Positions 22,194-42,004 of a DNA stretch of 64,000 nucleotides are shown in pieces. The stretch's first letter is position 1; each line of letters starts with the position of its first letter. The notes beneath the pieces were generated by a model, which ran no database searches, was not told where the DNA came from, and saw only the letters and a program-made list of their open reading frames with translations. Position numbers and translations under genes: made by a program. The stretch comes from Parabacteroides goldsteinii (lineage in GTDB: Bacteria > Bacteroidota > Bacteroidia > Bacteroidales > Tannerellaceae): positions 1-64,000 of the forward strand of contig NZ_JADNBB010000016.1 in the NCBI RefSeq assembly GCF_015550595.1, given 5' to 3'.

Positions 22194-23693
22194 TCAGTTG
22201 ACGCCGGTGCGGGTATCCCACCACATCTGTTTACCCCAACAATAATCGGTAACACCAACTGCGGCTGCTTCCACATTTTCTCTATTATAATCATATTGAT
22301 TATTGGGGTATGGCATGCGGAATGGAACATCAGTATGTTCAGTACCCCATTTCGACTTAGCACCCGGATATTGCTTAGTTACTCCATCCGAACCAACTGC
22401 CGTCTGGATATACGTTGGATAACCTGTCCTGCGATAAAAGCTCCATGCCTCGGTACATTCTTTGAATAAACCAACCCATTGTTCAAAGAAGAGACGACCT
22501 TTTGTGCCATCCCATTTACCTTTTCCTGCCAAATAGGCTTCAGTTTCTTCAGTACTTATCTCATTATCTTCCATCGAAAGACGGACAGCCTTTTCGTAAG
22601 CTTCTTGGGCAGTCATCGGAACATTCCAACCATTTAAAGCAGCTTCTGCCATCATAAAATAAGTTTCGCAGGCCTTATAGAATGGAGAAAATCCGTCAGG
22701 ATCACCTGCATAAAATGTCCCGATCAAAGAATAATTGGTCATATTAGGAAGATTCTGGGAGTTATATCCATGTTCGCCACCGCGATATTCGCCATCAGCT
22801 TCACTAGGCTGTGCCATTACCTTCAAACGAGGATCATCCATTTCTTTCAAATGGTTGATGAAGATTTCCGACATACAATAGTCTGTACGTGTGCGGAAAG
22901 TTTCAAACCAACGTTCGAAGTAATCGCCACTACCCTGCCACCAGAAATAAGCATTCTGGTCGCATTCTTCAATTACCGGGTATTGAGATGGATTGTTTAG
23001 TATTTCTTCCACAATACCTTGTGAGCCGGAATAGACAGCCGAAATCCGAATGGCCAAACGCAAACGGAGAGAATTACAGAAGCGCTGCCATTTTCCAACA
23101 TCGCCCTTATATAGAAAATCTCCTTCTCCCAAGTCATCTGTACCTAAACCGGTAGCCCAACTGTCGGCTATATCTTTCAGATTCGACAATATCTGCGGAT
23201 AAATTTCAGACTGTTCGTCGTATGGTGTCTGCAGAACGCCACCATCTTCCGGAGCGCCTTTGAATGCTTCCGAATAAGGTATGTCACCAAAGCAGTCCGT
23301 ACAAAGAGATAGTAAGTAGTTCTGCATCAAAAGTGCTACATTGTGCATATTTTTAGTATTCGTTTCATCCGTGCGTTCTACAATATCCTGCAACTGCACA
23401 TGACCATAATAACACTGAAACCATTTGTTACCATAAGTATTATTGGTTGGTAAGTAACCGCTGTAATCATCGATATACATACGATTGGAAATGTATCCTG
23501 ACCACAACGAAAGTCCCGGTAAATCGTCACCGAACTGGCGTGCCGTGCGAGCCAGTACCTCTCCCAACATATTGGTAGTAGGAACAGTTGTATATGCATC
23601 CGGATCGGTATTGATATCGTCGAAATCGCCTGTACAACCTGCTGTTACGACTAAGAACGTCGCTAATACTGATATTTTTAATATATTCTTCAT
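22194..23693 (-). CDS. SusD-like nutrient-binding lipoprotein, SusD-like-2 type (pair 3)
   Basis: A 499-residue lipoprotein; the signal peptide ends in VVTAGCTGDFDDINTDPDAY, the Cys-x(n)-INTDP start of the SusD-like-2 subfamily. The helical body includes LSLCTDCFGDIPYSEAFKG, which lines up with the family core. It ends CWGKQMWWDTRTGVN. It starts 20 bp after the SusC stop, so both depend on the promoter upstream of susC, which lies inside a probable invertible segment. Confidence 0.92.
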   Translation of the reverse strand: MKNILKISVLATFLVVTAGCTGDFDDINTDPDAYTTVPTTNMLGEVLARTARQFGDDLPGLSLWSGYISNRMYIDDYSGYLPTNNTYGNKWFQCYYGHVQLQDIVERTDETNTKNMHNVALLMQNYLLSLCTDCFGDIPYSEAFKGAPEDGGVLQTPYDEQSEIYPQILSNLKDIADSWATGLGTDDLGEGDFLYKGDVGKWQRFCNSLRLRLAIRISAVYSGSQGIVEEILNNPSQYPVIEECDQNAYFWWQGSGDYFERWFETFRTRTDYCMSEIFINHLKEMDDPRLKVMAQPSEADGEYRGGEHGYNSQNLPNMTNYSLIGTFYAGDPDGFSPFYKACETYFMMAEAALNGWNVPMTAQEAYEKAVRLSMEDNEISTEETEAYLAGKGKWDGTKGRLFFEQWVGLFKECTEAWSFYRRTGYPTYIQTAVGSDGVTKQYPGAKSKWGTEHTDVPFRMPYPNNQYDYNRENVEAAAVGVTDYCWGKQMWWDTRTGVN

Positions 23694-23712: not shown

Positions 23713-26700
23713 TTAAAATGTTAAACCAACTTTAATACCAAAGCTTCTGGATGACGGAACAGAAGCCTGTTCGAATCCAACACCACGGCTATCACTTGAA
23801 ACACCACCTGCTTCCGGATCCAGACGCATCGTATTCGACTTGTCTACCCATAGCAAAGCAACATTGTTTGCCACGAAAGAAATTGTTGCCCGACTAAAGT
23901 ATCTGGTTTGGGCAAGTAAATGTTTCGGGAATTCATATGAGACATACAATTCACGCAGTTTCAGGTAAGAACCTTTGAATATGTAATCTTCAGCAACACC
24001 ATATTGCTCAAACCAAGTCTGCGCGTCAGTCTCGATCGTGTTTTCCACCCAGTTACCGCCGGCATCTTGCATGACGTAGCGGTTTTGCGTCATTACATCT
24101 TTACCGGCAACTATGGCACGTTCGCGAACACCGTTCTCTACCGTATATTCAGCAACACCGGCAGTATAGCCATGATTCATAGTCTGTGACCAGATATCGC
24201 CGCCAATACGTAAATCGAACATAAAGCCAAAACCAAACTGTTTGATAGCAAAATCATTACGCCATCCCATCAGGAAATCAGGTGTCACATTACCTAGTTT
24301 TTGTGAGGATGCCTGATAAGGAGCACCGCTGCTGTTCACCTTAACCGCACCGATCTGATCAGACGTTGCCGTGCCTTTGGTTACATCTTCCTCCGTAACA
24401 CGGTTATATCCCGTCCCCATCAAATCACCCCATTTTTCACCCACAGTAGCATAAGTACCAATGCCCCATGTCCAACCGATATTGTAGGTATTCAAACCTT
24501 CATAAAGGCTCTTTACTTCACTTCGGTCTTTAGAAAAATTTAATGTAGAAGTCCAATTCAACCCTTCCTTATTTTGCAGCACATCTCCTTTTAGTTGCAA
24601 TTCGACGCCCTTATTATCAATACGTCCAGCATTGACCAACATAGAAGAAAATCCGACAACATTGGAAGTCGTAACTGATAAAATCTGATCTTCCGTTTTC
24701 TTCTGGTAATATGCCAAATCCAAATGCAAACGATTGTTGAGCAGTCCGATTTCCGTACCTATTTCCCAGGTTGTGACCTTCTCCGGTTTTAAATCTTCGT
24801 TTGGATACGTATAGCTCTTATGCATCAACGAAACGCCATTATGGGAAGGTGCATACGACGATTCCGGATAATAGTAATAAGAATTACGATAAGCTGATGT
24901 GGCAGAACCAACCTGGGCAATGCCGCCACGCAACTTCCAGAAAGAAAATATATCGTTCGTTAATTCGGGAAAACTTTCTGTCGGAATCCAGCTCAGGCTG
25001 ACCGAGGGATAAAAGAATGCATCGTGGATAGTTGAACTCCAATCGTTACGTGCACTGGCATCTACATACAACTGGTGTTTCCATCCCAGGGATACATTTG
25101 CATATATAGAATTGGAACGAATATGACTGTGATCCATAGTTGCAATTGCGTCGCCCGACTTATTACTCAAAGTATAAACGCCTGGCACTGTCAATGCGCT
25201 GGCACCCGATTCTCCTTTTTCCCAATTTACGTCACGATAGTTAGCGCCTAACAAACCGGTGATATTAAAATCGCCGAAAGTTTTGTTGGCAGAGGCTATG
25301 AAGTCTGCATTAAACTCGGTATTCATTATTCTGGTCTGCAGGAAAGCGCCATCGGGATTGTCGAAATCGAAATAATGACGTTCAAACGACTGGGAATGAT
25401 AATAATCCACACCGACACGTCCTTCAAATTTCAACCATTCAAACGGCTGGTAGTACAAAGACGATTTTCCGAAAATACGGTCACGCTGGTAGCTATTTGT
25501 GTTCTCGTTAACCGTGAAATAGGGGTTCATGTGGAAATTGGAGTTCCAGTTATAATAAGTATAATCTCCATTTACATCTTTTTGATCCCAGTTGTTTTTC
25601 AACGACTGCATATTGATCTGACGTCCGGACCAAGCAACCAGGGAATTGATCGGATTGTTATTGGCATATCCCTGTCCCAGTAAATTATCGCTCTGCGTGC
25701 GTGTATAACTGGCAGAGAGATCATAAGAAATATACTTGTTCAGTTTCATATTGGTATTTACCTGACCGGAATATTTCTTTTGGTCTGTATTGGGCACCGT
25801 TCCTATTTGGTTTCTGTAAGATAAAGATGCACGTGTAGTCATTTTCTCTGAGCGAGATTGCACCGAAACCGTATGGTTTTGAGTCGTACCCGTCTGGAAA
25901 AAGTCTTTTACATTATTCTTTCTGGAAACCCAGGGAGTCGCTTCACCATTACTGTCGAATTGTACCAAATTCAGCCCGGCATCCAAACGAGGCCCCCACG
26001 ATTCGTCTGTACCGTCATTTACACCGTTACCGGCACCGTCCAGATAAGAGAAACCATATCGAGAAGCATAATCCTGATACGAAAGTCCGTTGCCGTTCAG
26101 ACCGTAATGGTATTCATCGCCGTCATATCCTTGTCCATAAGAATTCTGCAACTTCGGTATGGTAGAGATACGATCGAATGTGATGCTTCCATCATAAGAG
26201 ATGGTTACCCCGTCGGTTCCTTTGCCACTCTTGGTGGTGATAAGGATAACTCCGTTACCGGCACGCATACCGTAAAGAGCAGCCGATCCTCCTTTCAGAA
26301 CAGAGATCGATTCGATATCTTCCGGGTTAATATCATTCAAACCCGAACCATAGTCGACTCCGTTATAGGTATTATCGCCTGAACGCTGGGTATCATTCGA
26401 AATAGGTACACCATCTACAACAATCAACGGCTGTTGATCAGCAGACAAAGAAGAGTTTCCACGGACAGATATACGAGACGAAGCTCCAACCGAACCTCCA
26501 AACTGATTAACTTGCACACCGGCTACTTTACCGGATAAAGAGCTTGTTAAACTGGGAGCAGCCGCTTTTGTCAGTTCCTCAGAGCCAACTTCCTGAATAG
26601 CATATCCCAGTGACCTTTTTTCACGGGAAATCCCCATCGCCGTAACCACCACCTCTTCCAAATGTTTCACATCCGATTGAAGGACAACCACCACATGTGG

Positions 26701-26967
26701 TTTTACGGCTACTTCCTGCATGCTCATGCCAACATAAGAAATCTGTAAAATTTTGTTTTTCTCAGGAACATCGAGGGAGAAATTACCATCCAGATCGGTG
26801 ATAGTTCCGATACTTGTTCCTTTTACCAGAATAGTTGCACCGATAATCGGTTCACCGTCATCACCCGAGGTCACCGTTCCGGTTACCTTCACTGTCTGAG
26901 CCAGCACTATACTTATACTTGCAAAGAAGAATAGCATAGTAATTGTAAATCGCTTCTTCATAGACAC
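23713..26967 (-). CDS. SusC/RagA TonB-dependent transporter (pair 3), probably phase-variable
   Basis: A 1084-residue transporter (MSMKKRF; Met3 at 26961 is an alternative start). Signal peptide, carboxypeptidase-regulatory-like domain (GTVTSGDDGEPIIGATILVK), TonB-box-like segment LEEVVVTAMG, plug with SVLKGGSAALYGMRAGNGV and a barrel ending SFGIKVGLTF. It imports whatever the SusD-like-2 partner binds. The -7 element at 27265-27272 lies about 300 bp upstream, between two perfect 18-bp inverted repeats (27023-27040 and 27449-27466), so expression may be switched by DNA inversion. No carbohydrate-active enzymes accompany the pair. Confidence 0.93.
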   Translation of the reverse strand: MSMKKRFTITMLFFFASISIVLAQTVKVTGTVTSGDDGEPIIGATILVKGTSIGTITDLDGNFSLDVPEKNKILQISYVGMSMQEVAVKPHVVVVLQSDVKHLEEVVVTAMGISREKRSLGYAIQEVGSEELTKAAAPSLTSSLSGKVAGVQVNQFGGSVGASSRISVRGNSSLSADQQPLIVVDGVPISNDTQRSGDNTYNGVDYGSGLNDINPEDIESISVLKGGSAALYGMRAGNGVILITTKSGKGTDGVTISYDGSITFDRISTIPKLQNSYGQGYDGDEYHYGLNGNGLSYQDYASRYGFSYLDGAGNGVNDGTDESWGPRLDAGLNLVQFDSNGEATPWVSRKNNVKDFFQTGTTQNHTVSVQSRSEKMTTRASLSYRNQIGTVPNTDQKKYSGQVNTNMKLNKYISYDLSASYTRTQSDNLLGQGYANNNPINSLVAWSGRQINMQSLKNNWDQKDVNGDYTYYNWNSNFHMNPYFTVNENTNSYQRDRIFGKSSLYYQPFEWLKFEGRVGVDYYHSQSFERHYFDFDNPDGAFLQTRIMNTEFNADFIASANKTFGDFNITGLLGANYRDVNWEKGESGASALTVPGVYTLSNKSGDAIATMDHSHIRSNSIYANVSLGWKHQLYVDASARNDWSSTIHDAFFYPSVSLSWIPTESFPELTNDIFSFWKLRGGIAQVGSATSAYRNSYYYYPESSYAPSHNGVSLMHKSYTYPNEDLKPEKVTTWEIGTEIGLLNNRLHLDLAYYQKKTEDQILSVTTSNVVGFSSMLVNAGRIDNKGVELQLKGDVLQNKEGLNWTSTLNFSKDRSEVKSLYEGLNTYNIGWTWGIGTYATVGEKWGDLMGTGYNRVTEEDVTKGTATSDQIGAVKVNSSGAPYQASSQKLGNVTPDFLMGWRNDFAIKQFGFGFMFDLRIGGDIWSQTMNHGYTAGVAEYTVENGVRERAIVAGKDVMTQNRYVMQDAGGNWVENTIETDAQTWFEQYGVAEDYIFKGSYLKLRELYVSYEFPKHLLAQTRYFSRATISFVANNVALLWVDKSNTMRLDPEAGGVSSDSRGVGFEQASVPSSRSFGIKVGLTF

Positions 26968-27022
26968 ACTTGTTTTAATTTAGATTAACTAGATATTTAT
27001 GCTGTTTTTATTTTATCGACAT

Positions 27023-27466
27023 AGTCTTAGAAGAACTATGACACTTTTTTGATATATAATAATATATATACCAAAACTATTGATTATCACAATCTTACCA
27101 TGTGTATATATAACCCTAATTAAAAGTAGGGTATAAACTAAGTATCTTTTAATTGAAATATGATCCAGAATTTGATGCTTAGTTTATCGGTAAATTAGCT
27201 TTTCCTCTCTCAGAATAGCAGATAAAATCATTTTACCGATAGATTAATATTTTATATAACAATGCAAATATAAATGAAAATTATGAAATAAACAAGTCTT
27301 TCAGGAAATAATTTGATATTATTATCGACTGAGTAATAACATTTCACCACTTCCTATTCATTCTTATATATGCAATAAGACTTTCCCATCCGGGTGTGAA
27401 TATATATTAAATGCTGATCGTTGCAAGGATCTCTTCTTTTTGAATGAACATAGTTCTTCTAAGACT
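27023..27466. promoter_or_regulatory. Probable invertible promoter segment bounded by perfect 18-bp inverted repeats
   Basis: AGTCTTAGAAGAACTATG at 27023-27040 is exactly reversed and complemented as CATAGTTCTTCTAAGACT at 27449-27466, with 408 bp between them. Matching stops at both arm edges. The enclosed DNA is AT-rich, has no real ORF, and carries a promoter-like TATATTTG pointing at susC. This is the layout of the known invertible promoters of Bacteroides capsule and SusC/SusD operons. The first 15 bases of the left arm also fit AGTYYYN4GDACT, which I recall as a published consensus for one class of those repeats. No recombinase gene is in the window, so the inversion enzyme would act from elsewhere. 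In the orientation given, the promoter faces susC (ON). Confidence 0.72.
27265..27272 (-). promoter_or_regulatory. -7 element inside the invertible segment, facing SusC pair 3
   Basis: TATATTTG on the minus strand, with CTTG 20 bp upstream (27293-27296) as a -33-like box, fits the Bacteroidetes promoter arrangement. A second weaker candidate (TAGTTTTG) lies at 27072-27079. From 27265 the mRNA leader would be about 290 nt and would include two hairpins: ACCCTA/TAGGGT near 27111-27131 and TATCGGTAAA/TTTACCGATA at about 27185-27242. Confidence 0.62.
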
Positions 27467-27787
27467 TCTCCCTTTTTTTAAACGTTCAACCTCCCCTTTC
27501 GGCAGTATTTTTCGTAGTTCGTTTTTTTTTACGGATAATAAAAATAAATTATATTTGCAACGGACATTCCGTTCTTCAAAGTCTCCTCTCTGCAAATAAT
27601 AAGCAACAATATATGGTATTCATTTCGACAGCATAGTAGCGTTGTGTCCCTATCACTTTAGTGACAAATCGGTGACACAATTGTCTTAAACAGGCTTATA
27701 GCATACCAGAACCGGTATTCGAACTTTTGTCGACAGAATAACATATCCATACCAAACACCTCTCCCATCAATTTTACAAAATCATAA
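27467..27787. other. Non-coding stretch right of the invertible segment, with a + strand promoter-like site and a nested palindrome
   Basis: TATATTTG at 27550-27557 points right. A nested palindrome follows: outer arms TTGTGTC (27642-27648) and GACACAA (27674-27680), with inner CACT/AGTG at 27654-27663. It could be an operator or recombinase site. No intact gene is present. A minus-strand frame at about 27470-27540 reads KNELRKILPKGEVERLKK, like the start of a small helix-turn-helix protein, but it has no start codon and runs into the inverted repeat. Confidence 0.5.
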
Positions 27788-27934
27788 ACAACGCAAAAAC
27801 AGCAAACTTTTTTTGATGAAAACAAGGTATCATTTAAAGCCTACAAACAATACCTGAAACATCAAACTGACAGAAAAAAGGTACTTAACGAGACTGCCAG
27901 CTATCTATTAAGCCTTAAATATCCAGAAAAGAGG

Positions 27935-28261
27935 ATGTTAGCCTTTAAAAATAATTTTTTCGAGACTTTCGCCCACGAACTGGCCGACAATTCCGGGTGC
28001 AGTGAGGTTCTACCCGATCATCTGCGCATACAAACCAAGGGATGGGAACAATTCCTGATCGAAATAATGAACGCCGCACGCTTATCGGGCAACCTGGGCA
28101 AGATAACCATCAAACGACTTGCCCGCATATTGGTCTGCATCCTCGATACTAATTACGACCAGGCAGGGATGATCAACCGGCTTAAAAACAAAAATCCGCA
28201 GTATGAGGAGATTTACAAGCTGGTCGAAGATTTGGCATCGCATATCGAAAAAAATATTTAG
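27935..28261 (+). CDS. Hypothetical protein, probably 5'-truncated
   Basis: From the ATG at 27935 this gives 108 residues, mainly helical, containing GWEQFLIEIMNAARLSG and KITIKRLARILVCILDTNYD. The same frame stays open upstream to 27788 and reads like protein (KAYKQYLKHQTDRKKVLNE), but there is no ATG, GTG or TTG in that extension. This suggests the original start has been lost. I do not recognise the family with confidence; the C-terminal pattern is vaguely like RteC-type conjugative-element regulators. Surrounding DNA is degraded mobile or accessory material. Confidence 0.45.
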   Translation: MLAFKNNFFETFAHELADNSGCSEVLPDHLRIQTKGWEQFLIEIMNAARLSGNLGKITIKRLARILVCILDTNYDQAGMINRLKNKNPQYEEIYKLVEDLASHIEKNI

Positions 28262-28520: not shown

Positions 28521-29092
28521 AAGACAATCATAAAACAGGAAAACACATTTCAACACCCCCTTCCTCCCCCCGTACCGGCATCGGAAGAGATGGAACTGGC
28601 CGTCATCATGGCCGTTATCGCCCAGAGCGGAGCCATTGCCGACGTGACACAACGCCTTTTGCCGGATATGTTCACCAACCCCTCCTACCGCCTGGTGTAC
28701 CGTGCCATGACGGCCCTGTACGACCACGAAGCCGATATCGACATATTGAGTATCGAAGAGGAAATGCGCCTGCTCGACCCTACACGGGCTACGGAACTGA
28801 ACGGGCTGGAATTTATTGCCGACCGGATGCTGACCGTTCGCAACGCAGCACATATCCGTACCTATGCCGCCTCGGTGATCCGCTGTTGGGTGTTGCGCCG
28901 CCTTTGTGCGGACATGCAGGAGCATACGTTGAAGGCGCACGACCCGGCAGTCGATGCGGTGTCGCTCCTGGGCGGCATCCACAAAGGGGTGCAGAAGCTG
29001 GAAGACTTTTTCGCCGTAAGCAGTACCACCCACGAGGCAGGCGACGTGAGCCGGCAGGTACTGGCCGGACGTCCTTCGATGGGGAAAACGAC
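28521..29092 (+). pseudogene. dnaB: Replicative helicase DnaB, N-terminal domain with most of the motor deleted
   Basis: The frame encodes the DnaB N-terminal domain (PDMFTNPSYRLVYRAMTALY, then ILSIEEEMRLLD) and the helical linker up to HEAGDVSRQ. It then jumps straight to the Walker A motif VLAGRPSMGKT, with the intervening motor sequence missing. After the Walker lysine and threonine (about 29090) the sequence changes abruptly to AT-rich non-homologous DNA, exactly where a 50-bp repeat starts; the frame runs on as meaningless sequence to 29273. There is no good start codon upstream of the ATG at 28590, though the frame is open from 28521. ATPase motifs after Walker A are absent, so it cannot be a working helicase. 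Confidence 0.75.
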
Positions 29093-31937: not shown

Positions 31938-34900
31938 TTATTCATAAGAATAAGCCTGAATTTCTACCGGACCGAGCAAACCGGACGATTGCAGAGGTGA
32001 GTCGGATTTCCAGGGATTCACGTTTGTCCAGGTTGCACGTTCTTTTTCAGGTAATGCATCATCGCCGATCAAACGATTCATCCAGTTATTCACCACTTCC
32101 ACTTCGATCAGGTTTTCTCCTTTTTGCAGAAACTCCCCGACAGGCAGGCGGTAAGGCGTTGTCCAGACACCACCGGCATATTGTCCGTTGATCTTTACTT
32201 TCGCCATCACCATCACTTTTCCCAGATCCAGGTAAAGTGCTTTCTGGGGTAATTCATCCAGTGTGATCCGGTTGGTGTAGACTGCTTTTCCTGAGAAATA
32301 ACGGATAGAAGGGTCGGCATGCATTGTCCAGTCCTGTAGTTCCGGGAAAGCAACAGTTCCTTCCGGTCCTCTTTTGCCCTTTTCAAAAGCGACTTGCCAG
32401 GGAGAAGTTATTGCGGCAAGTATCTCTTTACGCGGATAATTCCGGGCAGTCGTTTCCCCGGGAGCACCTTTCTTACGGAAAACAATAAATGAACTTTCAT
32501 AACCTTCCAGACGTATAGGGACAGTTGTAGCTCCACCGGAACAAGTAAACTCAGGCAGGCTACGTATCTCTGCCGTCAACGGATTCCAAAGTTCCGGTAT
32601 TTTACTGGTCACACGGAAGGAAGGACTTATCTCAATCGGGTTTTCACTCTGGTTAGAAATGAAATAAATATCACCTGCCTGTGTCGCACGATGAATAAAC
32701 AAAACAGGACTATCCGAAGCAACGCTTAAATCGGCTTTTATATCCAGAGCATCCAATACAGGCTGTAAAGAGGTGGACGGCATAAATAAACGTCCCTTTC
32801 CGATAGTACGCACTGGTTCCGTTTGGCTGCCCCAAAGTTCAGCAGCCAAAGATTTTACTTCCCGGTCGGCTGCCGGATAATTACTCAGGCTGGGAGAACA
32901 GGCAGGGGCAGGTCCCATGATGCAGGCTCCGGCCAACAACAACTCCTTTATCTTCCGTAGTACTTCCGGACGCATTGTTTCCAACCGAGGCAAAACAAGC
33001 AGACGATATTTCATTCCACCCGGTAAAACGATGTTGCCACCTTCCACTGTTGCACGTTCCAACAGAACTTCTCCATTGATATAGTCGAACGAATACCCTG
33101 TCGGGAGTTCCGGTGTACAAACGCCGGTCATCTTGGGAGCATCTTCTCCGATGAAATAGGCTACATCTGCTACATATTGGCCTTGTTGCAGCATGAAATT
33201 ACATCTTTTCAGATATTCGATGAAAACATCCATCTGGCCGAACCAGGTATTCTTCCGGTTAAATTCGTTTCCGAACCAGGCATCCAATCCCGGTTCACGA
33301 TCTTCAAACGGCTGATGAATAAACAGATGCAATAAAGTACTGTTTATTCCTTCCGTAAAGAAACGGTCCCCACGTTGCTTCATCAGGTAAGGATAACGGC
33401 TGAAGGCTGGCCCACCGCTGGTAAACGACTCGGCCCAGATCCGTTTCTTCCCATAGATATGTCCGCAGGAAGAGGCAGCCCGGTTCTCGATATCTCCCAG
33501 CGAACCTTCACTCCAGAACTCTCCGGCTATCTCGTCAGACTGTCCGCCATATTGCAGGAATTCACCCGGGAATCCCCAATGCCCGTAATTCTCCAGCCAG
33601 GTTGTCAATCCGTATTGATGGCAAACATCTCGCAAGCCACCTACATAATCGTAAGAAACCCGGTCGGCCACCAACCGCCGCAAGTCCCATAGGAAACGGT
33701 CTGATATATCGGGACTTCCAACTACGACCCCATTCAAGGCCGGAAGGTAAGGAACCGGATCATATCCGTAGCGTTCTTTGAAAACAGTAATCATATCATC
33801 TGTCCAGTTTTGTCCTCCGGTTTCATAACTATCCTGTACTACGACTTTAAAACTTTTCCGGTCGGCTTCCGGGATACGTTTCAATATCTCGCCGATAAAG
33901 GCGTCGAAATGGAAAGCCACATGTTCCCGGCTCATCTTATCGATCTCAGGCCCGGTTGCTTCGGGAGCTGCCGGGGAGTTCGTTACACCTGTCGGCAGCA
34001 TAACCATCCGGCGGATCACCCAGTCTCCTTCAGGTACTTCCCAGTCCAACACCCCTTCTCGGGCGAAAGCGGTCAGGTCTTTGATCGCCTCCGGAGAAAC
34101 CAGTAAAGAAGCATCGTTCACAGCCGGCTGTTTCTCCCAGAGATAATCATCCCACATAGGCAGCGGGGTTTGGAACATCTTGGCCAACGACTTTTCTGGA
34201 TAACGCTCTACCATCGGAGAAGAAGAAAGTGTCACTTCCCCTACACCGTCTCCCTCGGCGGACATCTCCAGACGAAACTGCGAAGCGGTGATTTCCGGAA
34301 GAGAGATAACGACGGGAGCGTAAGGAATAAAGCCCACATTTAGAGCCGGATTACTCCGGTCGATGGCGAACTGCCGTACCAGTTTTTCCTGCCCTCCCTT
34401 TTTAACCCATAGTTTTGCGGTTGTTTTAAAAGGAGTGTTAGCCTGATAGATTAACGTACGTATAGTTTCCTCTCCATCGAAGATCAAGACGGAGGAAGTC
34501 TGCTGCCCGGACTTCTTATTTATGGTCCAACTCTTTTCCGTTACTGCCTTACCCGACGAAGGATACGCGATAACGCATACATCCTGTTCGTCTTTTCCCA
34601 CAGAGGGTAAAACCAGTTGCATACGCTTAGGCCCGGTTACAATCGTATCGGCAGAGGTAAGATAACGCATGGCTTGTGAACTTTTCACCCAAGGCCCCCC
34701 GGACTGGCTCCATCCCGGACTATTAAATATCCCTATCTCGATATCCAGCTCCGTGGCCTTCTTCAATGCCGCATGCAGTATCTCCCACCACTCGGAACTT
34801 AACAATTTATTATCGCCATAATCAATGCCGTCTATACCGATGTTACCGATAAATGCACGGTTTATCCCGGCTACCTTCATCGCTTCCAGATCCCGTTCGA

Positions 34901-35093
34901 CACCTTCTTTTGATATATTGTCTGAGATCCAGTACCAGTAAACACCGATCTGTGTGCTGTCGGGGATCGTACGGAAACCTTGTTCGATATCGGCAAAAGA
35001 AGCATAGTTCTCCGATATATCTCCTTTATTACAGGAAAGAAAACTCAGACAAGCCCCAATGGCAAGGGAGGATAGAAGTGTTATTTTCGTCAT
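31938..35093 (-). CDS. GH106-like alpha-L-rhamnosidase, lipoprotein
   Basis: A 1051-residue enzyme expected to release rhamnose from complex glycans. A signal peptide ends at a lipobox (LSFLSCNKGD), so it is membrane-anchored, probably facing the periplasm or outside. The GH106 start is clear: IGVYWYWISDNISKEGVERD followed by LEAMKVAGINRAFIGNIG. Large central domains contain VVQDSYETGGQNWTDDM, a catalytic-region segment of the family. The C-terminus carries a GH2-type jelly roll (KVMVMAKVKINGQYAGGVW). It lies 104 bp downstream of a PL8 lyase on the same strand, so both likely attack one polysaccharide. Confidence 0.85.
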   Translation of the reverse strand: MTKITLLSSLAIGACLSFLSCNKGDISENYASFADIEQGFRTIPDSTQIGVYWYWISDNISKEGVERDLEAMKVAGINRAFIGNIGIDGIDYGDNKLLSSEWWEILHAALKKATELDIEIGIFNSPGWSQSGGPWVKSSQAMRYLTSADTIVTGPKRMQLVLPSVGKDEQDVCVIAYPSSGKAVTEKSWTINKKSGQQTSSVLIFDGEETIRTLIYQANTPFKTTAKLWVKKGGQEKLVRQFAIDRSNPALNVGFIPYAPVVISLPEITASQFRLEMSAEGDGVGEVTLSSSPMVERYPEKSLAKMFQTPLPMWDDYLWEKQPAVNDASLLVSPEAIKDLTAFAREGVLDWEVPEGDWVIRRMVMLPTGVTNSPAAPEATGPEIDKMSREHVAFHFDAFIGEILKRIPEADRKSFKVVVQDSYETGGQNWTDDMITVFKERYGYDPVPYLPALNGVVVGSPDISDRFLWDLRRLVADRVSYDYVGGLRDVCHQYGLTTWLENYGHWGFPGEFLQYGGQSDEIAGEFWSEGSLGDIENRAASSCGHIYGKKRIWAESFTSGGPAFSRYPYLMKQRGDRFFTEGINSTLLHLFIHQPFEDREPGLDAWFGNEFNRKNTWFGQMDVFIEYLKRCNFMLQQGQYVADVAYFIGEDAPKMTGVCTPELPTGYSFDYINGEVLLERATVEGGNIVLPGGMKYRLLVLPRLETMRPEVLRKIKELLLAGACIMGPAPACSPSLSNYPAADREVKSLAAELWGSQTEPVRTIGKGRLFMPSTSLQPVLDALDIKADLSVASDSPVLFIHRATQAGDIYFISNQSENPIEISPSFRVTSKIPELWNPLTAEIRSLPEFTCSGGATTVPIRLEGYESSFIVFRKKGAPGETTARNYPRKEILAAITSPWQVAFEKGKRGPEGTVAFPELQDWTMHADPSIRYFSGKAVYTNRITLDELPQKALYLDLGKVMVMAKVKINGQYAGGVWTTPYRLPVGEFLQKGENLIEVEVVNNWMNRLIGDDALPEKERATWTNVNPWKSDSPLQSSGLLGPVEIQAYSYE

Positions 35094-39687: not shown

Positions 39688-40359
39688 TCATCTGACCAGC
39701 TTATACCCGATCCCCCGGACATTCAGTATCTTGATCCGGGGGTCTTTTTCCAGTTTATGCCGGAGCTTCGTGACGAACACATGCAAGCTACGGGCATTGT
39801 AGAAGCTGTCGTTCCCCCAGAGTTCCAATAGGATATCCTTGGTGTTGACCGGAAGATTCCCGCTCTCGCAAAGCAACCGGAGCAACTCCGACTCCTTGAA
39901 GGAAAGCTCGACCGATTCACCGCCTGCCTCCAACGTCTGCGTAGACGGATAAAACGTGTACAACCCGATTTCGTGATACGCGACGGCGACAGGCTCAGCC
40001 TTGTTCTTGACGATCAATGCCTTCACCCGGACAATCAGTTCGCGCAGGCTGAAAGGCTTCCGCAGGTAGTCGTTCGCCCCCAATTCGAACCCTTGCACGA
40101 TATCGTCTACCGACGAACGGGCACTGAGGAACAGGACAGGCACCTCCTTATCCATCCGGCGGATACGGCGCACCATCTCGAAACCATCCACCTCCGGCAT
40201 CATCACGTCGGCAATAATCAGTGCCGGATGCTCTTTGAAATAATGCTCTATCCCATCCAGTCCGTCGCGGGCTACCGTTACTTCGTAGCCTTCCTCTTCC
40301 AATGCGTCTTTGACGATCATGGCTAGGGAGACTTCGTCTTCTACTAATAAAATATCCAT
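39688..40359 (-). CDS. OmpR-family response regulator
   Basis: A 223-residue transcription regulator. The receiver domain (1-115) has the acidic pocket ED at 7-8, phospho-acceptor D51 in IIADVMMPEVDGF, and K101 in YLRKPF. The winged-helix DNA-binding domain (about 130-223) contains SFKESELLRLLCESGN and RSLHVFVTKLRHKLEKDP. It begins 10 bp after the sensor kinase stop, forming one operon. The likely target is the divergent outer-membrane receptor at 42005, by position. Confidence 0.94.
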   Translation of the reverse strand: MDILLVEDEVSLAMIVKDALEEEGYEVTVARDGLDGIEHYFKEHPALIIADVMMPEVDGFEMVRRIRRMDKEVPVLFLSARSSVDDIVQGFELGANDYLRKPFSLRELIVRVKALIVKNKAEPVAVAYHEIGLYTFYPSTQTLEAGGESVELSFKESELLRLLCESGNLPVNTKDILLELWGNDSFYNARSLHVFVTKLRHKLEKDPRIKILNVRGIGYKLVR

Positions 40360-40369
40360 AAGCTTGGGG

Positions 40370-41830
40370 TTATTGCGGTAATGTGATTATAAAACAGGAA
40401 CCCTGGCCGGACACGCTCTCTACGGTGACCGTCCCGCCATGCTTCTCCACCATTGTCTTCACGTAAAAGAGTCCGATGCCGTAGCCCTTCACCTGCGAAT
40501 GGCGGCTGGAAGGCAACCGGTAAAACTTATCGAAGAGATGCCGGCGGTACTCTTCAGGAATACCGGGGCCGTTGTCCTGCACACGCAGCTGTACCTTTCC
40601 TCCGGCAGCCTCCGCCCGTATCGTTATCTCCGGTTCCTTGTCCGCATATTTGACGGCATTATCCACCAGGTTGCTGATGATACTGTACAAATGTACACGG
40701 TCGGCTTTCAGAGTTATTTCCTCCGGGACAGACTCCACACGGATACGGAAAGGGCGTGACGACTTGATCTTCTGCTGTTCCAGTATCTTACCGATCAGGG
40801 CATTCAACGAAATATCCTCCATCACCAGGCGGATCTCTTTCCGTTTTTCCAGGCTAAGGGTCAGGATCTGTTCGACCATTCCGCCCAGCCGTTCCAGTTC
40901 CTCGTGGCAAAGGTGGAGGTATTTATCGGCCTTCTCCTTATTTCCCAGGAGGTTATAATGGATGATCGACTCGATGGCGGCATAGGATATGGCGATGGGT
41001 GTCTTCAACTCGTGCGTCACGTTATGGGTGAAGTCGTCTTTCAGTTGCTCCACCGTCTTCTGGTGGAGCAGGAACCAGATCATGTAGGCGAACGACAGCA
41101 CCAGTATCAACAGGATCAGAAACGAAGAGACCAGGATACCCGTCATTCCCGCCAGCGAAGCCAGCCGGGTCGGTTCCACATAGACATAATAGGCTTTCGG
41201 ATGATAGGTGGTATACTCCCAAGTATAACGGTCGTAATGCGCCGGGTCTTCCCCAGTGGGGACGGAAGAGGCGACCACCGTACTGTCGGCAAGAGACCGT
41301 ATCTCCGTGAAATGGCGGAGGTGCAGTTTTTTCTCCCGGAGACCGGCGGTCAGCAAGCTGTCGAACTTCGCCAGGTCGACGGGAAAGATCGTATCGATCA
41401 CCTCGTGGAGGCTGCGTTGCATCTGCAACCCCAGCTGGCCCAGCGAACTGAAATCGTCGCCTACCCTGACCTTGCCGCTTTCGAGTACTTTCTTCATCTC
41501 GGCATTCACTTCGGGCATAAGGGGGAGTCCGGCTTCTTTCTCGACGATCCGGACGGTCGCCGGTACCGAGTCCTTACTCCGGAAACGGGTAGTCAGGGCG
41601 ATACCTCCCCGGTCGTCGGCCTGCGAAAAGGTCTCCCGACGCTTGTTCGCCAACCGGCTGATGGTGTCGGCACGGCTGAACAGTTCGATATGGTCGGCAT
41701 TGCGGATCGCCTCGATGATATAGTCCCTGTTCTGCTGCTGGTGGGAATGGTACAGCCGGTTGATCCAGAACAACTGGTAGGCGAATATCCCGGATAACGA
41801 CACGATCACCAGTGCAATGATATATTTCAT
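40370..41830 (-). CDS. Membrane sensor histidine kinase
   Basis: About 486 residues from the ATG at 41830 (MKYIIALVIVSLSGIFAYQ; 41842 is an alternative). An N-terminal membrane helix, a periplasmic sensor region of about 230 residues, and a second helix (about residues 220-245 of this start) precede the kinase core. The H-box is HNVTHELKTPIA, the N-box NLVDNAVKYA, and the G-boxes DNGPGIPEEYR and GYGIGLFYVK. It phosphorylates the response regulator encoded next. The long upstream open frame was rejected because a TATATTTG promoter lies inside it. Confidence 0.92.
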   Translation of the reverse strand: MKYIIALVIVSLSGIFAYQLFWINRLYHSHQQQNRDYIIEAIRNADHIELFSRADTISRLANKRRETFSQADDRGGIALTTRFRSKDSVPATVRIVEKEAGLPLMPEVNAEMKKVLESGKVRVGDDFSSLGQLGLQMQRSLHEVIDTIFPVDLAKFDSLLTAGLREKKLHLRHFTEIRSLADSTVVASSVPTGEDPAHYDRYTWEYTTYHPKAYYVYVEPTRLASLAGMTGILVSSFLILLILVLSFAYMIWFLLHQKTVEQLKDDFTHNVTHELKTPIAISYAAIESIIHYNLLGNKEKADKYLHLCHEELERLGGMVEQILTLSLEKRKEIRLVMEDISLNALIGKILEQQKIKSSRPFRIRVESVPEEITLKADRVHLYSIISNLVDNAVKYADKEPEITIRAEAAGGKVQLRVQDNGPGIPEEYRRHLFDKFYRLPSSRHSQVKGYGIGLFYVKTMVEKHGGTVTVESVSGQGSCFIITLPQ

Positions 41831-41847
41831 GGATGATTTCATGCAAA

Positions 41848-41855
41848 CAAATATA
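41848..41855 (-). promoter_or_regulatory. -7 promoter element of the two-component operon
   Basis: TATATTTG on the minus strand fits TAnnTTTG and is 18 bp before the ATG at 41830. It argues against any more upstream start for the kinase. Confidence 0.65.
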
Positions 41856-42004
41856 GGGATTCTCCGGCTTGCCGCCTGCCGCTTTAAACCAAAATAACAC
41901 AGTTTCGGACGAATGTTATTTAGTCTTACCAAATGCAGGCGTTTTTTGGAACTGTTCAGGGCCCTTTCTACCTTTCGTATAAAAATCACGAAAAGCACAA
42001 GAAC

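Follow-up and report, generated by a model that had tools for sequence, protein, structure and literature searches.

A probable invertible promoter upstream of a susC–susD pair in Parabacteroides goldsteinii and a genome-wide family of similar sites

The susC–susD locus and its inverted repeats

The window, i.e., the whole stretch of 64,000 nucleotides of Parabacteroides goldsteinii DNA analysed here, contains a susC–susD pair preceded by a short segment enclosed by two inverted repeats. The features of the locus are listed below; G000 denotes the strain's own genome, and G004, G019, and G022 are the relatives that share the locus.

22194–23693, minus strand: susD-like gene, downstream of susC (PF12771, 255 bits)
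23713–26961, minus strand: susC, encoding a SusC/RagA TonB-linked outer-membrane transporter (TIGR04056, 673 bits, cut-off 368)
27023–27040, plus strand: putative left recombination site (arm), AGTCTTAGAAGAACTATG, with presumed half-sites AGTCT and GAACT around the spacer TAGAA
27041–27448, no strand: probable invertible segment, 408 bp, 26% GC, lying the opposite way to the susC flank in both G022 and G019
27179–27247, minus strand: hairpin predicted for the early part of the susC leader RNA, TATCGGTAAA / TTTACCGATA, from single-sequence folds
27265–27295, minus strand: predicted Bacteroidota-type promoter facing susC (ON as assembled), with TTG at 27295–27293, a 20-nt gap, and TATATTTG at 27272–27265
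27449–27466, minus strand: putative right recombination site (arm), the reverse complement of the left arm
27550–27557, plus strand: further promoter-like TATATTTG, not enclosed by the repeats, directed to the right and shared with G019
27788–28261, plus strand: open frame of 157 codons, across the switch from susC, with an intact 158-aa counterpart in G019

The two 18-nt arms are 100% complementary, with 408 nt between them, and form the sole perfect 18-bp inverted pair in the window with a spacing of up to 2 kb. First-order Markov models gave no such pair, either in 60 sequences of 64 kb based on the window or in 400 sequences of 2 kb based on 26.95–27.95 kb; no further copies of the arm were found in the window with up to three mismatches allowed, and none of 100 shuffles gave two matches. 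A chance repeat is ruled out by these 460 random sequences and 100 shuffles. The GC content of the segment is 26.0%, compared with 45.8% for the window. In both arms AGTCTTAGAAGAACT matches AGTYYYN4GDACT, the repeat consensus of the Tsr0667-type inverton class of Bacteroides fragilis; the string itself was not found in the literature searched. The description in the earlier note, of two perfect repeats around 408 bp of AT-rich DNA, very unlikely to arise by chance, and of a left arm whose first 15 bases fit this consensus, is thus confirmed. A site of the Mpi type was also considered and ruled out, as the arm lacks ACGT and the adjoining gene is susC. No target-site duplication was seen at the outer edges of the repeats.

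The -7 element facing susC, noticed previously, is indeed present on the minus strand as part of TTG-N20-TATATTTG at 27295–27265, in which TTG, separated from the downstream TATATTTG by 20 nt, agrees with the -33 consensus TTTG in three of four bases. This arrangement is close to the Bacteroides promoter consensus, -33 TTTG and -7 TANNTTTGY, given in PMC8748976. A second -7-like sequence, TAGTTTTG, at 27079 on the minus strand, is not conserved in two sister species. The left arm and the ATG of susC at 26961 are separated by 61 nt. The hairpin at 27179–27247 is located just after the promoter, and the G019 letters differ at both places yet could pair; as a conserved leader structure it was rejected, being alike by eye, but with disagreeing folds in four species.

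The search with the SusC protein of the window found 24 loci, the best of them 70% identical, although very near records may be absent from this set. No NCBIfam family was found for the susD-like product. A scan of 27 of the 92 listed window ORFs revealed neither a sigma factor nor a FecR gene, and the closest two-component genes seen are those at 39688–41998, more than 12 kb from the switch; within this set, the absence of such regulators nearby, as claimed earlier, holds.

The region at 27.5–28.3 kb, previously called decayed, doubtfully deserves this name, since its 157-codon frame matches the intact 158-aa ORF of G019 and the region has its own TATATTTG at 27550. The region is kept in G019 with 77% identity over 800 bp; the G019 counterpart of the frame starts with ATG where the window reads ATA, and no Pfam family scored above the cut-off for the frame. 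In the OFF state this frame would be placed downstream of the invertible promoter and would gain transcription. Further along, the 227-aa product of the ORF at 28590–29273 matches the N-terminal domain of DnaB and no other part of the helicase; the ORF is 88% identical over 498 bp in G019.

Orientation of the segment in related genomes

When positions 26900–27700 were compared at the DNA level with 147 genomes, 15 of them gave matches, mostly shorter than 70 bp, the own genome being counted in both figures; the locus is carried convincingly by G022, G019, and G004. In G019 the segment is reversed while both outer flanks keep the order and strand of the window, the collinear flanks being the susC side and, on the far side, the 800 bp together with the DnaB-like gene. 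In G022 the susC flank and the segment match on opposite strands, with the switch of strand at the arm; the far flank is unrelated to that of the window, save for a short match elsewhere. The promoter is kept in both genomes as TTG-N20-TATGTTTG, pointing away from susC. The G004 contig ends inside the segment, and the visible 38-bp piece with the promoter has the orientation of the window. Among the four species, two are therefore ON (the window and G004) and two OFF (G022 and G019). Another susC-like start, 78% identical and cut by the contig end, is found on a second G004 contig.

The arms of G022 are the same as those of the window, letter for letter, and the same arm occurs in G004; the G019 arms differ from those of the window at three positions, changed alike in both arms. 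At the G022 locus (L144:7386–7949) the perfect inverted repeat extends over 140 bp rather than 18, with the sole N in 16 kb exactly at its end. On one side of this N lies the OFF junction beside susC and on the other side the ON junction at the far arm. The G022 assembly thus probably holds both orientations, with OFF-type and ON-type pieces joined by the assembler; the 140-bp repeat could instead be a real duplication. The comparison across relatives, proposed in the earlier note, has therefore yielded a segment inverted in G022 and G019 and in the same orientation in G004. Because the segment is inverted in two sister species, the promoter is conserved, and G022 seemingly contains both orientations, the locus is best read as an invertible ON/OFF promoter that is ON as assembled.

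A family of sites, their spacers, and a candidate recombinase

The broad motif AGTYYYN4GDACT is hardly enriched in the genome, with 135 matches against 115 for the reversed control, whereas the tighter motif AGTYYTN4GAACT matches 89 times and its reversed pattern 20 times. The lists of places covered 100 of the 135 broad matches and all 89 tighter matches in G000, 100 of the 103 matches in G019, and all 88 in the remaining listing. Inverted pairs, defined as arms less than 1 kb apart with at most three mismatches between them, were collected from the window and 27 regions fetched from the motif lists. The genome contains at least 26 such short pairs, a lower bound because of the chosen regions and the mismatch limit; an estimated 1.4 or so opposite-strand pairs would be expected by chance from 69 and 66 random places in 6.5 Mb. 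The genome search suggested in the earlier note has thus revealed other sites of the same class.

A SusC gene pointing away from the pair adjoins 17 of the 26 pairs; this is a plain count, TIGR04056 having been scored for 56 of 181 candidates in this genome. When these 17 neighbours were re-tested, 15 were above the TIGR04056 cut-off and two (C84 and C22:39603) were recognized by SusC-type Pfam domains; the neighbour at C22:192306 has just 739 aa and matches profile positions 2–612. At C10 a FecR gene stands between the pair and susC. An ECF sigma factor gene pointing away adjoins five of the other nine pairs, and one more pair precedes a gene for a large hybrid regulator:

G000:C85:131725–131926: pair beside ECF sigma factor
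G000:C22:202822–202978: pair beside ECF sigma factor
G000:C44:31362–31524: pair beside ECF sigma factor
G000:C11:376537–376747: pair beside ECF sigma factor
G000:C34:21267–21484: pair beside ECF sigma factor
G000:C7:133746–133971: pair in front of a 1413-aa hybrid two-component regulator

The last three pairs are located one each beside genes for an outer-membrane efflux protein, a sulfatase, and a DUF4469/HU protein. The ECF sigma factor and hybrid two-component pairs may possibly represent phase variation of regulators rather than of transporters, although the target of several pairs, C34 and C7:133746 among them, is a guess because their other flank also has a gene pointing away. If the invertase also flips regulator promoters, whole nutrient programmes, and not single transporters alone, may be phase-variable.

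At least one TANNTTTG is present in 25 of the 26 segments, compared with a mean of 10.2 and a maximum of 16 in 300 sets of random sequences of the same make-up; the segment without it, C22:202822, belongs to a sigma-factor pair. At the 15 susC loci where a SusC gene stands on just one side and all promoters run the same way, these promoters face susC in five cases and away from it in ten, as assembled.

Two further arrangements are worth describing. At G000:C85:54277–54713 an inverted pair lies between two divergent SusC genes, where a flip of the promoters could swap which SusC transporter is made. In addition, two inverted AGTCCTTTATGAACT sites, at G000:C11:30022 and 56279 and thus at a distance of 26 kb, flank two convergent susC genes, each site standing about 1.6 kb beyond one of them; the same two sites, also 26 kb apart, occur at G022:C8:3541701 and 3567999. 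Those on C11 possibly bound a 26-kb invertible segment.

The central 5-bp spacers of the sites were compared for all pairs of tighter-motif sites within 1 kb, with no similarity filter, in three genomes. The central 5-mers were exact inverses in 19 of 19 pairs in G000, 28 of 28 in G019 (100 of the 103 matches listed), and 19 of 19 in G022, i.e., in 66 of 66 pairs, which are not independent because the three species are related. No direct pairs and no mismatched spacers occurred among neighbouring sites less than 1 kb apart in these genomes, whereas distant pairs, located on different contigs or more than 10 kb apart, had matching spacers in 18 of 2249, 22 of 3122, and 12 of 2053 cases, or about 0.7%. 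The spacers also agree in all 26 filtered G000 pairs, C85:54277 included, and 23 distinct spacers are found among 25 of them (the C85:54277 pair left out). Differences between the arms of the 26 pairs are confined to positions 4 and 12, outside the spacer; the motif itself permits differences at positions 4–10 and 12 alone. Each switch thus seems to have its own 'address', its 5-bp spacer. Identity of the overlap is an established need of tyrosine recombinases, with loxP as an example, and for this reason the spacer is plausibly a private address. The rule predicts that altering the spacer of one arm would stop inversion and that altering both alike would restore it. No title on point concerning the spacer specificity of such invertases was present in the literature listing, whose coverage leaves out most subscription papers.

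The recombinase search, proposed in the earlier note for the vicinity of the locus, found a candidate tyrosine recombinase with linked sites, on another contig and not nearby: none of the 48 Phage_integrase matches in the genome is on the contig of the window. The candidate was picked by comparing 44 of the 48 own matches with 30 of the 45 of G012. In this comparison eleven own recombinases were more than 60% identical to a G012 one, and these presumably include XerC/XerD-like and ICE-type proteins, judging by size. For one recombinase of this genome, the closest named homologues among the best 120 of 4496 matches come from Parabacteroides (P. goldsteinii, 96%; Parabacteroides sp. HGS0025, 92%). 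Two proteins were profiled over the relatives, the one encoded at C55:118890–120050 and C85:210019. The former is the candidate:

G000:C55:118890–120050: candidate tyrosine recombinase of 387 aa, with arm-binding, SAM-like, and catalytic domains

The C55 gene has no stops, and comparison of the enzyme with solved structures gave two distant integrase matches; a homologue in G022 is 96% identical. Four AGTCTTTGCAGAACT sites (C55:101711–114033), the nearest at 4.9 kb from the gene, stand among four ORFs with TonB-receptor domains. Against a home-made SusC profile, one of whose five seeds (window 31938–35093) is an alpha-L-rhamnosidase, three of these ORFs scored at least 400 bits and one 344; the cluster is probably a SusC shufflon. 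The same 15-mer AGTCTTTGCAGAACT occurs near the enzyme gene in G013, G019, G021, G022, G040, and G052.

Motif enrichment, defined as an uncorrected p < 0.01 in a one-sided binomial test with the reversed pattern as reference, was observed in 16 of 146 relatives. A C55 homologue at E ≤ 1e-80 is present in 15 of the 16 enriched genomes and 22 of the 130 others (Fisher p about 1e-9), and one with at least 70% identity in 10 of 16 and 8 of 130, respectively (p 3e-7); C85:210019, of 317 aa, was found at E ≤ 1e-80 in 4 of 16 and 2 of 130 (p 0.0013), relatedness being uncorrected in all three tests. Eight of the 22 relatives that have the homologue without significant enrichment carry it at 70% identity or more (G001, G016, G017, G025, G032, G036, G058, and G068). 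In G001, G016, G017, and G025, with homologues 74–77% identical, motif matches are fewer than in the control; G016 has a single inverted pair with matching spacers, at about 5 kb from the enzyme gene. In the motif-enriched G004 no C55 homologue was found at E ≤ 1e-40, and C85:210019 is present. On its counts in enriched and other relatives, C85:210019 was set aside as the less likely candidate.

Sites within 1.5 kb of a C55-type gene were found at 4 of 30 loci, with about two sites expected by chance, as estimated from the reversed control of the broad motif. Five of the six sites near C55-type genes are the identical 15-mer AGTCTTTGCAGAACT, and the sixth is one letter off. In eight of nine genomes viewed more widely (G000, G012, G013, G016, G019, G021, G022, and G040), a site at most 5.5 kb from the gene is matched in its spacer by an inverted partner no more than 17.5 kb from that gene; the nine were hand-chosen, with stretches of unequal length and no random control. 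The ninth, G001, has one single site. Together, these observations point to the C55 protein as the best candidate for the invertase. Four other tyrosine recombinases of 304–306 aa, 62–72% identical paralogues encoded at G000:C66:237516, C66:137768, C33:98178, and C85:15530, are each located near a gene for a protein of 455–483 aa; they are perhaps local invertases of another surface system.

Proposed mechanism, alternatives, and comparison with known systems

It is highly probable that the segment 27041–27448 is an inverton, flipped via its arms by a tyrosine recombinase supplied in trans and switching susC–susD ON and OFF. The recombinase would pair the two 18-bp arms, and strand exchange inside their identical central spacer, TAGAA, would flip the segment. 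In the assembled orientation TTG-N20-TATATTTG would read through the left arm into susC–susD (ON); after flipping, the promoter would point away and susC would lose its promoter (OFF). We infer that the segment flips in this strain, that its orientation sets the expression of susC, and that the C55 protein is the enzyme. The invertible-promoter reading of the earlier note is thus supported by the orientation in relatives and by the genome-wide family of like sites, and the switch is very probably a real invertible promoter of an already known kind, that of the Bacteroides SusC/SusD invertons. A broader proposal, which in our estimate could as easily fail as hold, is that one tyrosine invertase acting in trans serves about 19–28 short switches per genome in these Parabacteroides, distinguished by private 5-bp spacers and controlling the promoters of susC and ECF sigma factor genes, perhaps also those of hybrid two-component regulators.

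An alternative to the assignment to the C55 enzyme is that the inverton is a true one flipped by a different recombinase. The many Phage_integrase matches in the genome, the four paralogues among them, provide other possible enzymes; G004 is enriched in sites with no C55 homologue detected and has C85:210019, a protein itself associated with enrichment, and 22 genomes combine a C55 homologue with no enrichment. We nevertheless consider this rather unlikely, as 12 of the 16 enriched genomes gave no C85:210019 match at E ≤ 1e-80 and spacer-matched sets of sites lie near the C55-type gene in eight of the nine genomes viewed widely.

Less likely still is a fossil switch that flipped in ancestors and is now locked in this strain, with susC expressed from a fixed promoter. 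The single orientation in the assembly of the window agrees with it, but the arms are still perfect over 18 bp, those of G019 have changed in step, the candidate recombinase gene is without stops, and G022 looks mixed. Scarcely credible, finally, is a static inverted repeat or the ends of a small mobile element in place of recombination sites: short perfect terminal repeats around AT-rich non-coding DNA would also fit a MITE, yet mobile-element ends are largely ruled out by the lack of a visible target duplication, by arms whose spacers vary from locus to locus, and by the reversal of the segment in place in two species.

Among SusC/SusD invertons, the probable switch at 27041–27448 provides a Parabacteroides example with comparatively good support. 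With a genome-wide set of pairs and a named candidate enzyme, a single gene deletion could test about 26 candidate switches together. Switching of SusC/SusD pairs bears on the nutrient niche of gut commensals, on their sensitivity to phages, and on how the immune system recognizes them.

The closest known system is that of B. fragilis YCH46, in which Nakayama-Imaohji et al. reportedly described in 2009 invertible regions controlled by Tsr0667 (BF0667) as well as shufflons of SusC/SusD genes. Invertible SusC/SusD regions under Tsr0667 in B. fragilis also appear in PMC4747536 and PMC11852207. The two systems share short repeats of the AGTYYYN4GDACT type, a promoter between them with susC/susD downstream, many scattered loci, a trans-acting tyrosine recombinase (a candidate here), and SusC shufflons. 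They differ in the host, Parabacteroides here and B. fragilis there, and in number, although the 26 pairs predicted here and the 12 regions reported for Tsr0667 set prediction against experiment and are not a fair comparison. Unlike in the Tsr0667 system, ECF sigma factors stand beside five of the pairs; regarding sigma-factor invertons, no title on point was present among the literature matches listed, most subscription papers lying outside their coverage.

Mpi is a serine recombinase with another repeat sequence, ARACGTWCGT. Capsule promoters of B. fragilis controlled by Mpi/FinA are treated in PMC4747536 and PMC3090145, and the latter reports both promoter orientations of capsule loci in the shotgun data of one culture. 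In these sources, as here, the promoter is invertible and one master enzyme (a candidate in the present case) serves many distant loci; the presence of ON and OFF forms in the same shotgun data has a counterpart in the seemingly mixed G022 assembly. The Mpi/FinA system switches capsule loci and the one described here susC.

Inversion sites have also been reported for P. distasonis (PMC5903667), and invertons of gut Bacteroidota have been found from reads (PMC8748976, PMC11892184, and PMC10939037). The latter invertons resemble the locus analysed here in having -33/-7 (TANNTTTGY) promoters inside inverted repeats, some of them beside SusC/SusD genes; they were scored from reads, while the present locus is known from the comparison of genomes.
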